DNA from: a virus | Virus record (IMG/VR): IMGVR_UViG_3300031787_000166 | Span: 1 to 53,104 of that record | Length of the DNA: 53,104 nt | Strand: one strand, 5' to 3' | In this document: positions 2,208-11,434 of the stretch, in pieces | How positions within the stretch are numbered: the first letter of the stretch is position 1 | Layout: the number at the start of each line of letters is the position of its first letter | Program-made: the position numbers and the translations under genes | The notes under the pieces: model-generated | What the model saw: the letters and a program-made list of their open reading frames with translations, nothing else | The model's database searches: none | Told to the model about the DNA's origin: nothing

Positions 2208-2453
2208 ATGCCCAAGCCCAAGCTCAAGACCGCCATGCTCGACCGAGCCGACGTCCCCCCTCCCCCGCTGCATCTCTTCCGTCTCAGATGCACTTATCAA
2301 TCAACCCACGAAGGCGAGCCCCACTACATCGTCGGCACCTGCCGCGAGGCGGTCGCCGAACTGTGGTACAGCCTCAACATGCGGGACATGGAAGACCCGT
2401 GCGAACTGGTCATCGACCAGATCCGCAGCGCCGAGGAGTCGTACCCCGCATGA
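2208..2453 (+). CDS. Hypothetical protein
   Basis: 81 aa, beginning 9 nt after the previous stop with AAGGGA just upstream. A basic N-terminus (PKPKLKTAM) is followed by a small mixed fold ending acidic. Its stop overlaps the next ATG (ATGA). No family recognised. Confidence 0.65.
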   Translation: MPKPKLKTAMLDRADVPPPPLHLFRLRCTYQSTHEGEPHYIVGTCREAVAELWYSLNMRDMEDPCELVIDQIRSAEESYPA

Positions 2454-2746
2454 ACCCGGCCCGCTACAAACCCGCAATGGCCTGCCCGTGGGGTCACATC
2501 GAATCCTCGCAGACCGTCGCTCCTGGCATCTACTTCGTGCAGACCGCAAGCCACGGCGGATACCGCCTCTTGCCCGAGGTCTACGCCCGCATGCCCCAGC
2601 ACCTCCGCGAGTACTCCTTCACCAAGGACCAGTGGTTCGAGCAGGACTGCTCGTGGTGCGCCGTCGTCCTCGCCTTCCCAGAACACTTCAGTCCGGCCTA
2701 CATCGAGGCCGCCCGCCAGACCGAGCAAAGGAACTACAAGCCATGA
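2450..2746 (+). CDS. DUF7007-like protein
   Basis: 98 aa. The pattern CPWGHIESSQTVAPGIYFV, then ASHGGYRL, then DQWFEQDCSWCAVVLAF matches what I recall of the DUF7007 domain (PWG...APG...T.SHGG..L...W.EEDC.WA), found in plasmid and phage proteins; its function is not known to me. The start is the ATG overlapping the previous stop, and the stop overlaps the next ATG, so the three genes from 2208 to 3108 are translationally coupled. Assignment is by pattern memory only. Confidence 0.65.
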   Translation: MNPARYKPAMACPWGHIESSQTVAPGIYFVQTASHGGYRLLPEVYARMPQHLREYSFTKDQWFEQDCSWCAVVLAFPEHFSPAYIEAARQTEQRNYKP

Positions 2747-3108
2747 AGCAAGCACACATCCGCATCGACATCGAACTGCCTCCCGACGCACCCGAACCCA
2801 TGGCGGACAGCATCAACCGCTATGTCCAATCCATGCTTCGTCTCGCCTATCCCACGCTCGGCTCCAACTGCTGGCTCGACGACATCACCGAGCCAACCAC
2901 CAATCCCGAGCCGGCCGCCACGCCGGTCGAGTGGAAGGTCTCGTGCATCGCCCTCGAGCATTGGACCCGCACCTTCCGCGTCAAGGCGGCGACCCCGAGC
3001 GACGCCATCCAGTACGCCATGGAGCACGGCATCATCCACCACGACGAGTTCATCGACACCGAATCCCTCTCCAACTGGAGCGCCAAGCGTTGCGACCCCC
3101 AGTCCTGA
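2743..3108 (+). CDS. Hypothetical protein
   Basis: 121 aa, ATG overlapping the previous stop. The N-terminal 40 residues form a beta-alpha unit (AHIRIDIELPPDAPEPMADS). The second half (WTRTFRVKAATPSDAIQYAM) resembles small 'DpnD/PcfM-like' or ferredoxin-like folds in which a strand is followed by an 'A..A...A' helix, but this is only an impression. Confidence 0.65.
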   Translation: MKQAHIRIDIELPPDAPEPMADSINRYVQSMLRLAYPTLGSNCWLDDITEPTTNPEPAATPVEWKVSCIALEHWTRTFRVKAATPSDAIQYAMEHGIIHHDEFIDTESLSNWSAKRCDPQS

Positions 3109-3155
3109 CCGTCACCCCTTTACAATCTTCCAACTCTGTGTAACATAGGAGACTC

Positions 3156-3410
3156 GTGTCCCAACCCAAACTCAACATCAACGACTTCGTCATCCTCTCA
3201 CCGCGCCGTGTCCGCCTCCTATCCGACACGGACATGACGCCCGACCGGTTCTACCTCGTCTCTGTCCTCGAGGACAAGGGCGACAACTTCGACTTCGAGA
3301 TCCTCGACTCCGGCCCGTGCGCCCTTGTCGAGGCCCTCGCCATATCCGGCTGCATGAAGGGGCAGCGGGTGTGGTTACCAGGAGATCCCTTCGGAGACAG
3401 CGACCAATGA
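3156..3410 (+). CDS. Hypothetical protein, GTG start
   Basis: 84 aa. AGGAGA (3147-3152) sits just before the GTG at 3156, which decides the start. The sequence reads like a small beta-barrel (NDFVILSPRRVRLLSDTD and RFYLVSVLEDKG). Its stop overlaps the ATG of the DUF932-like gene. TTTACA/TAACAT boxes at 3119-3146 look promoter-like but sit too close to the start codon. Confidence 0.65.
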   Translation: MSQPKLNINDFVILSPRRVRLLSDTDMTPDRFYLVSVLEDKGDNFDFEILDSGPCALVEALAISGCMKGQRVWLPGDPFGDSDQ

Positions 3411-8615: not shown

Positions 8616-8812
8616 GTGATCTTGAGCTTTTTGAGTTGTGGCAAAACCACTACATCTCACTCTGGAGTGATGGAGAAATTGGCGTGTCAGATGGTGTTGG
8701 ATTTGTCGGAACAGTTGATGCAACAGAAACTCGTAAACTTTATGAAGCACTTCGTAGATATTACGGAGATGACAAACTTGACAGCGAACCCGCTAAAGGG
8801 GGTGGCGCGTGA
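8612..8812 (+). CDS. AT-rich small cassette gene
   Basis: 66 aa with a GTG start overlapping the previous stop. Begins MSDLELFELWQNHYISLW and ends EPAKGGGA. Its codons are visibly AT-rich (ttt, gaa, aat, act) unlike the GC-rich neighbours, and the gene sits exactly between two 16-bp direct repeats, so it looks recently acquired by repeat-mediated recombination. Product function unknown. Confidence 0.65.
   Translation: MSDLELFELWQNHYISLWSDGEIGVSDGVGFVGTVDATETRKLYEALRRYYGDDKLDSEPAKGGGA
8797..8812 (+). repeat. 16-bp direct repeat flanking an AT-rich cassette (right)
   Basis: Exact copy of 8600-8615; it contains the stop of the cassette gene and the GTG start (8809) of the glycosylase-fold gene. 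Confidence 0.9.
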
Positions 8813-9462
8813 TCCTACCGCTGTTCCCGTCGCATCCCGAGTGCAGGTCGTGCGACAGGTGGCAGGAGGCGTCGTGCAATCCGGGGATCCCCACCGAAGG
8901 GATCGGGGACCCCGGGCTGCCGGCCCTCGTCGTGGTCGGCGCATCGCCCGGCTACCACGAGCACCGCTCGAACGCCCCCTTCAGGGGCGCGGCCGGCCGC
9001 CTCCTTCGTGACGTGATGCTTGCCGAACTTTCCAACTTGTGTACTATCTACCTGACCAACCTCGTGCGTTGCGGCCGCGAGCCCGACGCCAAATCCAAGC
9101 ACTACAAATCCTGCTTCCCCCACCACTCATCCGACCTTCGTGCCATCCTCGATACCCCCCATCCCGCCCACTACGTCCTGCTCCTGGGTGCGCCGGCCAC
9201 CGTCCAGTTCCACCGCCTGCACCTCGGCCTCAAGCTGCGCCACGCCGACGCGATCGCGCAGAACGGCCGGCACCACACCGTCCTCGGCCGCTCGGTCCCC
9301 GTCTTCACGACGCTGCACCCCGGCGCCATCCTGCTCAACAACTCCCTGATCCACAACGTCGAGGACCATGTCGACCTCCTCATCTCCACCATCCGCGGCC
9401 ACGCCCCGTCCCCGACCGAACCCGACATCCAGCCGGCCCGATCCCCGCACCATCTCCCTTGA
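8809..9462 (+). CDS. Uracil-DNA-glycosylase-superfamily protein (family 4/SPO1-type)
   Basis: 217 aa, GTG start overlapping the previous stop. Features of an Fe-S UDG: C12-x2-C15 (ECRSC), a further Cys at 23, then C88 and C102; the motif VVGASPGYHEHRSNAPFRG (about 42-60), like the usual GEAPG...PFVGRAG; and TTLHPGAIL (about 166-174) matching the second active-site motif. The Glu normally in GE(A/G)PG is Ala45 here, so glycosylase activity is doubtful. In phage SPO1 a domain of this family is fused to the DNA polymerase. Here it overlaps the polymerase start by 95 nt in a different frame, supporting a polymerase-associated role. Confidence 0.8.
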   Translation: MILPLFPSHPECRSCDRWQEASCNPGIPTEGIGDPGLPALVVVGASPGYHEHRSNAPFRGAAGRLLRDVMLAELSNLCTIYLTNLVRCGREPDAKSKHYKSCFPHHSSDLRAILDTPHPAHYVLLLGAPATVQFHRLHLGLKLRHADAIAQNGRHHTVLGRSVPVFTTLHPGAILLNNSLIHNVEDHVDLLISTIRGHAPSPTEPDIQPARSPHHLP

Positions 9463-11434
9463 CATCGAGACCTATGGCATCACACGATTCACCCCCACTG
9501 GGCGGCTCTTGCCCGAGCAGACCGTCTTCCACCCCGCCCGCTCCACGGATTCCGATGGGGTACTACGTGGTGACCTCATCGCCACCGTCGCTGTTACCGT
9601 TGCCCGAGCCGACGGTCCTCTTCATACCCTTGAGCCCGGCCCAACGTTCATTTTTGAAATGGGTAAGGCGTCCGCCCGATCCCACCTGGCCCGATGGCTC
9701 TCGCATGCTCAGGTCATCCTGGGAATGAACCTGCAGTTCGACCTGCTCTACCTCCGCTCCCAGCCCGACTTCCGATTCCACCTTCATTCGCAGACGCTGA
9801 TCGACCTCTCGGTCCTCAACTACCTGCACTCCGAGCTGCGCCCCGAGCGGTCGCTCAAGGCGCTCGGTCCCGTGCTCGGCACCCACGCCTACCCCAAGGA
9901 GCAGCTCGACCGCAGCCGGCGCTACAAGGACGCGCGATCGCCCGAGCTTCACCGCTACAACGCGGCCGACACCCACAACACCCTCCTCGCATGCGCCGAG
10001 CTGGCGCGCCGCATCCGCGCCGACTACCCCGGCACGGCCAAGCTCTCGCCCGAGTGCATCGCCCACTACTCCGACACCATCTGGACCGTGATCCGCATGT
10101 CCGAGGCCGGCGTCCCCATGTCCGTGCCGCGGCTCGAGGAACTGGAGCGCCGCCTCTCCGCCGAGCTCTCCGACCTGTCCACCCAGGGCCTGGTCCACGG
10201 CCTCGTGCTCGAGGGCCCGGGCTCCACCGCCTCCAAGAAATCCCTCATGGAGAAGGCCTGCCTCCACGTCGAGGAGCACCACGACCCGTCCATCCGGTCG
10301 CACCACCTGTTCCAGCTCACCGACAAGAAGCGCGAGATCGCCGTCAACGACGTGAACCGCCAGCTCTTCCTCTCGTTCCCGCTGCCCGAGACCCTCGCCG
10401 CCCCACTCCAAATCCTCGGGCGCCACTCGTCCGTGCAGAAGCTCATCTCCTCGTACACCTGCCCGCTCCTCCGCCACCGCCGCACCGACCCGGACGACCG
10501 CTCCTCCCGCCTCGTGCGCCGACCCAACTCTCCAGTGGGGGTCTCCTATCCCACGTGGTTCGTCACCCCCACTGCCTCGAAGGACGGGTCCGGCGCCGAG
10601 GGCGGCACCCTGCAGGGGCGCATCACCTGCAAGAACTTCCGGCACCAGACCGATCCCGACGAGATCAAGGAGTGCTACGCCAGCCGCTGGCCGCGCGGGC
10701 ACATCGTCGGCTACGACCTGTCGCAGATCGAGATGGTGGTGGCCGGCCTCCTGTCCGGCGACGACGCCCTCTGCTCCGCCTTCTGCGCCGACCCGCCGCT
10801 CGACCTGCACACGGCGCGCGCGACCCAGGTCTTCGGCCCCGCCATCAAGGACGACCCCGACTTCAAGAAGGTGTACCGCCAGGCGTCGAAGGGCGCCAAC
10901 TTCGGGGACCTCTTCCGCGCCGGGGCCCAGACCCTGCAGACCCAGGTGTTCAAGCAGACCGGAGTAGTGATCCCGCTTTCACTGTGCGAGAACATCGTGA
11001 AGACTCGCCCCCTCGTGCGGCCCGGACTGTGGGCGTGGCAGCAGGAGCTGATCCGGTCGACCCGGGAGCGCGGCTACCTCGAGCTCCCGTTCATCGGCCA
11101 GTCCCGGCGCTTCATGGGCGGCGACGCCTACGACATCTCCGAGATCGTGAACATGCCTGTCCAGTGCACGGCGGGCAACGTGCTGCTCCGCATCCAGCAC
11201 CGGCTGGATCGCACCCTTCCCTCGATCAATGCGGCGGCGCCCGACATCCTCATGTTCCTCAACGTGTACGACGCGATCTACTTCGACTGCCGCGACGACC
11301 CCGCCGTCGAGCGCCTCGACGTCCTCTTCCGTGACGCCTTCACCTACGTGACAACGGAGGGCTACTGGGCTAGACTGTGCGCACTTCACTCCCGAACCAT
11401 CCCGATACGCTATGAGCGCACCATCTACACCTGA
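9368..11434 (+). CDS. Family A DNA polymerase with 3'-5' proofreading exonuclease
   Basis: 688 aa. Exonuclease motifs are complete: ExoI LDIETYG (D32, E34), ExoII GMNLQFDLLYL (N121, D125), ExoIII YNAADTHNT (Y198, D202). Polymerase motif A is GYDLSQIEMVVAG (D450), motif B RQASKGANFG (R504, K508, F512), motif C LNVYDAIYFD (D635). Compared with Pol I, the Arg after SQIE is replaced (SQIEMV) and motif C is VYDA instead of VHDE. No 5'-3' exonuclease domain. The ATG at 9368 is the only start upstream of ExoI in this frame, so the gene overlaps the glycosylase-fold gene by 95 nt through a low-complexity Pro/Ser linker. It is the phage replicase. Confidence 0.93.
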   Translation: MSTSSSPPSAATPRPRPNPTSSRPDPRTISLDIETYGITRFTPTGRLLPEQTVFHPARSTDSDGVLRGDLIATVAVTVARADGPLHTLEPGPTFIFEMGKASARSHLARWLSHAQVILGMNLQFDLLYLRSQPDFRFHLHSQTLIDLSVLNYLHSELRPERSLKALGPVLGTHAYPKEQLDRSRRYKDARSPELHRYNAADTHNTLLACAELARRIRADYPGTAKLSPECIAHYSDTIWTVIRMSEAGVPMSVPRLEELERRLSAELSDLSTQGLVHGLVLEGPGSTASKKSLMEKACLHVEEHHDPSIRSHHLFQLTDKKREIAVNDVNRQLFLSFPLPETLAAPLQILGRHSSVQKLISSYTCPLLRHRRTDPDDRSSRLVRRPNSPVGVSYPTWFVTPTASKDGSGAEGGTLQGRITCKNFRHQTDPDEIKECYASRWPRGHIVGYDLSQIEMVVAGLLSGDDALCSAFCADPPLDLHTARATQVFGPAIKDDPDFKKVYRQASKGANFGDLFRAGAQTLQTQVFKQTGVVIPLSLCENIVKTRPLVRPGLWAWQQELIRSTRERGYLELPFIGQSRRFMGGDAYDISEIVNMPVQCTAGNVLLRIQHRLDRTLPSINAAAPDILMFLNVYDAIYFDCRDDPAVERLDVLFRDAFTYVTTEGYWARLCALHSRTIPIRYERTIYT

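Follow-up and report, generated by a model that had tools for sequence, protein, structure and literature searches.

The stretch of DNA analysed here (the window) is an IMG/VR virus record of 53,104 bases that encodes, besides the two genes considered below, an ERCC4-type nuclease, a PD-(D/E)XK exonuclease, a Sak4-like protein, a primase/helicase and a large terminase. A gene for a protein of the uracil-DNA glycosylase (UDG) superfamily is followed, in another reading frame and with an overlap, by the gene of a family-A DNA polymerase, and we infer that the two form one replication module (Table 1).

Table 1. Features of the UDG and polymerase genes and of their junction (window positions).
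Feature	Position	Strand	Remarks
UDG-superfamily (family-4-like) protein, stand-alone, 217 aa	8809..9462	+	GTG start
Motif 1 GASPG, residues 44-48	8938..8952	+	Ala45 and Ser46 correspond to Glu41 and Gly42 of Tth UDGa
GAGG, weak Shine-Dalgarno-like match	9361..9364	+	3 nt before ATG 9368
Family-A DNA polymerase with 3'-5' exonuclease domain, 688 aa	9368..11434	+	ATG start, +1 relative to the UDG frame
Polymerase leader, residues 1-23, unconstrained and predicted to be disordered	9368..9436	+	read from the UDG gene in a second frame
UDG C-terminal tail, conserved, RGHAPSPTEPDIQPARSPHHLP	9394..9459	+	stand-alone UDGs from neighbouring clades end in the same type of tail
Stretch coding in both frames: UDG tail end, and PDPRTIS, the first polymerase residues under constraint	9437..9459	+	substitutions mostly synonymous in the polymerase frame

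The UDG gene begins within the stop codon of the gene upstream (GTGA). Its assignment to the UDG superfamily, proposed in the earlier note from the letters of the sequence, is borne out by a Pfam PF03167 match (E = 9.8e-14; 52.1 bits against a gathering cut-off of 24.3) and by the fold of an AF2 model (pLDDT 94.9) whose best PDB matches are all UDGs. The closest solved structures are the family-4 enzymes of Sulfolobus tokodaii (4zby; VIA Z 21.8) and Tth UDGa (1ui0; Z 20.7), followed in the ranking by UdgX and then by the phiLo family-A polymerase 9qhs (Z 16.5), which carries a UDG-like domain at its N-terminus. The window protein has in common with the family-4 UDGs the fold, the four Fe-S cysteines (C12, C15, C88 and C102), the HP motif, the Asn and the second Glu, but it differs from them in motif 1 (GASPG instead of GE[AG]PG), is 24-25% identical to them and falls below the family-4 NCBIfam cut-offs (49.9 bits against 125.3 for TIGR00758, 58.8 against 250 for NF040953). 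PHROGs gave no match for this protein and a single-sequence search of viral contigs with it found no relatives; the polymerase-based search of viral contigs did recover the UDG next door.

The polymerase matches Pfam PF00476 (DNA_pol_A; E = 1.9e-15, above the cut-off) and PHROG 17 (E = 2.1e-49), and both the profile and the catalytic carboxylates are those of a family-A polymerase with a 3'-5' exonuclease. The exonuclease residues D32, E34, D125 and D201 and the polymerase residues D450, K508 and D635 are invariant among 46 homologues and the best PDB folds for the model are Pol I large fragments, which together lead us to expect that the protein should be an active proofreading enzyme. At 9578-9613, within this gene, the relatives share several T-ending codons (three GTT, and GAT) of a kind seldom used in the rest of these genes, possibly an overlapping DNA element. 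In-frame insertions of ~70-95 residues, which the window polymerase lacks, are found between the equivalents of its residues 221 and 224, or near 388, in L041 (3989-6469), L040 (504-3017), L042, L075 and L077. On the single contig L014 (720-3225) the homologous polymerase lies in two ORFs in different frames, an exonuclease part (720-1922) and a polymerase part (2224-3225) on either side of a small ORF (1877-2251), and may be a split polymerase.

That the polymerase start at 9368 lies 95 nt inside the UDG gene is confirmed by the ORF coordinates (overlap 9368-9462, polymerase in +1) and recurs in relatives. The polymerase frame is closed by a TGA at 9347-9349 and open only from 9350, the UDG frame ends with the TGA at 9460-9462, and the stretch 9350-9459 is open in both; between 9350 and the exonuclease motif ATG 9368 is the only ATG, GTG or TTG in the polymerase frame. 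The absence of stops from that frame has no power as evidence of translation in GC-rich sequence of this kind, one relative being open over 648 nt. Both overlapping segments had been described as Pro/Ser-rich linkers, but the overlap consists of more than linker: its first ~9 UDG residues belong to the helix that closes the UDG fold (178-195), the other ~22 making up the tail. On the polymerase side the overlap encodes a leader predicted with low confidence (residues 1-23, pLDDT mostly <50; below 50 at residues 1-6 and 10-23 in the AF2 model), the protein being folded from about residue 24. With positions counted from Ile29 of the polymerase, the nonsynonymous/synonymous ratio in the polymerase frame is 2.98 at -51 to -22 and 0.27 at -21 to +1. 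Constraint in this frame and predicted fold both begin at Pro24-Asp25, which is where sister loci start their polymerases; these begin MPDPTFAS or MSDPTFAS (MPDPTFASLDIETYG, MSDPTFASVDIETYG), directly before the exonuclease motif, and match the PDPRTIS of the window.

Searches with the polymerase retrieved 15 viral loci from the single sequence and 72 from a profile, plus one MAG locus (L092), and a phage collection yielded no close relative of the window. Three architectures were distinguished. In architecture A, found in ~40 loci with 27-35% identity to the window polymerase and also in two deposited phage genomes, UDG domain and polymerase are fused in one frame; in architecture B, that of the window's clade (71-78% polymerase identity), all members have overlapping genes and the polymerase in +1; in architecture C (37-48% identity) they are separate and non-overlapping, ~30 nt to 3 kb apart. 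The window itself, with UDG and polymerase in different frames, does not have the SPO1-type fusion in one frame. Comparison of the junction across related phages revealed the overlap and the +1 relation in 13 of 13 contigs that contain it (12 of them distinct), which come from separate metagenomes, and the recurrence of the arrangement in each related contig that spans the junction excludes a chance overlap. The same comparison disposes of the sequencing or assembly indel that might have split a fused gene, an explanation raised earlier for a polymerase lying one base out of frame: with an identical frame relation in all these related contigs, at 71-78% polymerase identity, an error of this kind is refuted and retains practically no credence.

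In a maximum-likelihood tree of the polymerases, architectures B and C together with L075/L077 and L085 formed one clade of 31 rows (SH-aLRT 100), none of them fused, while all sequences outside it were fused except L060/L074. Two changes of architecture suffice on this tree, a quick one with long outgroup branches and no firm root, from which the direction (fission or fusion) is not readable. The unfused pairs of L032-L042, L075, L077 and L092 have the same UDG tail and polymerase as the window, but their genes do not overlap, sometimes have other genes between them, and encode a motif 1 of GMNPG or GRNPG, with the pocket Asn retained, instead of GASPG. In L074 (3335-5989) UDG and polymerase share a frame and are parted by a single TAA directly before a TTG, which would represent either a fused gene interrupted by one stop codon or a fission that happened very recently. 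In L019 (130-3568; MW202637.1), another phage, the polymerase is closely preceded by a separate TtUdgA-like protein, with GGGPT as motif 1 and also without the Glu, and by an annotated RNA ligase.

The overlap is real and conserved, and its most likely decoding is an ordinary one. We favour, with a probability of about 0.68, two separate proteins from overlapping genes, the polymerase being started inside the UDG gene and the UDG being a probable non-cutting accessory. The upstream gene yields, as homology shows, a complete stand-alone family-4-like UDG-fold protein ending at its natural C-terminus, and the polymerase would be translated independently from a start codon inside that gene (ATG 9368; mostly TTG in the relatives), its short disordered leader of 23 residues probably being a by-product of the overlap. 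In the window lineage the pair is unfused, and the start region of the polymerase would have come to lie across the UDG gene's 3' end, whichever of fission and fusion came first. The tail of the UDG bears directly on this reading: the pattern PxPSxPxIxPPRSP followed by a stop is common to the clade B UDGs (PTDPDIQPPRSPHH, then stop) and to the unfused UDGs of L075, L077, L033, L039, L041 and L042 (ending in VPSRPSIIPPRSPNP in L075, VPSKPTLVPPRAPES in L042 and VPSEPNIIQPRIPHV in L033, each before the stop). The UDG frame is therefore read to its natural end, past the sole plausible slippery site.

A programmed +1 ribosomal frameshift near the UDG end, for example at CCC_CGA, would instead produce a UDG-polymerase fusion like the SPO1 polymerase, as the earlier note had proposed among its options. 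Fused homologues are common, every member has the polymerase in +1, and constraint passes from the UDG to the polymerase frame at one point (about -21), as a +1 shift would give; at this very point nine loci have CCC_CGA, where re-pairing one base on is possible. However, at the candidate site the window and L027 have GCC_CGA and L029/L030 have GCC_AGA, L087 lacks the site, and the UDG stop, TAG or TGA, falls at four places (-13, +2, +8 or +14 relative to Ile29), so that neither a conserved slippery site nor a conserved place for it was found. Moreover, the UDG tail continues past the site to the natural stop of unfused homologues, start codons are retained in the polymerase frame, the whole 31-row clade is unfused, and no shift-stimulating RNA structure was found when eight segments of 100 nt were folded (z from -0.5 to 0.8). 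We accordingly regard such a frameshift as improbable. A stop-driven (prfB-like) variant was rejected, as stop codon and position vary and L027, whose UDG stop lies beyond the exonuclease Asp codon, would lose that Asp.

Independent translation of the polymerase, which we prefer, finds support in the start codons. Every member with a full junction has one in the polymerase frame, at five different positions relative to Ile29: ATG at -84 in the window, TTG at -81 in most, GTG at -45 in L028 and ATG at -63 in L029/L030 and at -66 in L087. The chance of such a start per sequence was 0.12-0.41 in a codon-usage simulation and 0.15-0.62 in sliding control windows, and the product over five lineages, taken as independent, is 0.001-0.004. 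The TTG start is created by an Ile codon, which is ATT in five of the five Ile-bearing sequences tested although ATT accounts for 4% of Ile codons, and this is the only such column of 29. GAGG precedes the TTG by 6 nt in most relatives; the window has a short spacing (3 nt) and an anti-SD energy, -5.9 kcal/mol, that is ordinary for this phage. On the other hand, the lack of positional conservation of any start codon counts against an internal start, as do the short spacing in the window and L028, whose only candidate, the GTG 45 nt upstream, is without a good Shine-Dalgarno sequence.

Translational coupling had also been suggested. Classic termination-reinitiation, for which a start within -8 to +10 nt of the upstream stop is taken as predictive (PMC10666635), is doubtful for ATG 9368 because its 95-nt overlap lies far outside this range; plain initiation inside the UDG gene fits better and is the more likely, perhaps with the assistance of passing ribosomes. 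Termination-reinitiation might also take place at the UDG stop itself, with the polymerase beginning at the non-standard ATT, ATC or ATA codon of Ile29. Five loci have this codon in a 5-nt overlap with the UDG stop (ATTAG), seven have it 11 nt back from there, and unfused homologues begin 2-6 codons before Ile29. As a start, however, ATT has ~0.3% of the efficiency of ATG, a distance of -11 is more than reinitiation usually spans (PMC10666635), and L087 and L027 have distances that do not suit this mechanism. Besides, the residues PDPRT ahead of Ile29 are conserved in the polymerase frame, even in L087, whose UDG frame is closed by this point, and a start at Ile29 is in our view improbable.

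As to the function of the UDG, the earlier note had stressed the Ala that replaces the catalytic Glu in GASPG. The Glu is indeed missing (E41 of Tth UDGa), but it is H155 that has the largest kinetic effect in that enzyme, and its equivalent, His170, is present in the window protein. The worst single changes reported for Tth UDGa are H155S (~2,500-fold) and the likewise strongly costly E41Q (~900-fold), followed by E47A (120-fold) and N80A (44-fold) (PMC5387724); in UdgX the Glu is given a role in nucleophile activation and E52A loses the covalent reaction (PMC10359453). When the window UDG is mapped on Tth UDGa, E41 is replaced by Ala and G42 by Ser, and E47, F54, N80 and H155 are kept. Among 26 fused sequences the E41 position is occupied by E in 12, Q in 10, M in 3 and K in 1, with N80, E47, H155 and all cysteines present in 26 of 26. 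The 12 unfused sequences of group C have M (7), R (4) or Q (1) at E41, and all 12 have Asn at the G42 position. The SMUG1 and MUG motifs GMNPG/GINPG have that Asn too. In clade B (n = 10) E41 is lost from all ten sequences, N80 from nine, and H155 from one (L087), E47 is changed to D in three and the Fe-S cysteines are kept in 10 of 10, motif 1 of the window's relatives being GPAPG, GPTPG, GPSPG, GVTPK, GVTPN or GPCST.

Judged by these residues, clade B has an eroded uracil pocket on a kept scaffold, and the window UDG is its least eroded member. It can be argued that the latter is still an active uracil-DNA glycosylase, engaged in repair and merely encoded beside the polymerase: residues equivalent to H155, N80, E47 and F54 are present in it, as is every Fe-S cysteine, and unfused relatives that lack the Glu in GMNPG/GRNPG keep the remaining pocket. 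The cost of E41Q in Tth UDGa and of E52A in UdgX, and the loss from the clade of Glu41, mostly of Asn80 and in L087 also of His155, make this unlikely. Efficient uracil excision is unlikely in the clade because pocket residues are lost while fold and Fe-S ligands are kept, and the clade B UDG would most likely be a DNA-binding, non-cutting partner of the polymerase. The structural role at the replisome put forward in the earlier note is, on the same residues, plausible for the clade; the window UDG keeps more of the pocket than its relatives do.

The association of UDG-like domains with phage polymerases is itself known, and the overlapping, unfused form described here is a new variation on it. 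The fusion attributed to SPO1 does exist, and not in SPO1 alone: in SPO1 gp31, the phiLo polymerase (PDB 9qhs), Brevundimonas phage StAshley and ctfzr933 the same two modules follow in the same order as in the window, with the UDG domain directly before the 3'-5' exonuclease domain, but as a single polypeptide, whereas the window has two ORFs in different frames. SPO1 gp31 is also without the four Fe-S cysteines that the window clade keeps. In this SPO1 protein (L094, 32242-33441), the textbook case, motif 1 reads QENPFD instead of GEAPG and the HP motif is kept. Vaccinia D4 is a UDG fold that serves, with A20, as a polymerase processivity subunit and has a catalysis-independent role in replication, while keeping five of six conserved family-1 active-site residues (PMC1936997). 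Its likeness to the window UDG is a functional analogy only; D4 acts via A20. In the literature on UDG-polymerase fusions, on UdgX with phage polymerases and on 9QHS nothing was found on function, and no source found settles what the UDG-like domains of phage polymerases, known from SPO1, do.

The ~75 loci assembled here present one UDG-polymerase pair in fused, overlapping and fully separate forms. Some of them have an intact uracil pocket and others an eroded one, over a kept Fe-S scaffold; domain and subunit can hence be compared directly, with and without catalytic residues. We tentatively envisage, as a possibility that falls short of even odds, a replisome with a separate, catalytically degenerate Fe-S UDG-fold subunit that would scan the template DNA or tether the polymerase. 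If this is true, the repeated loss of the motif-1 Glu from polymerase-linked UDG domains, seen also in the fused sequences, 14 of 26 of which have Q, M or K in its place, would mean that cutting is selected against when a glycosylase rides on a polymerase.
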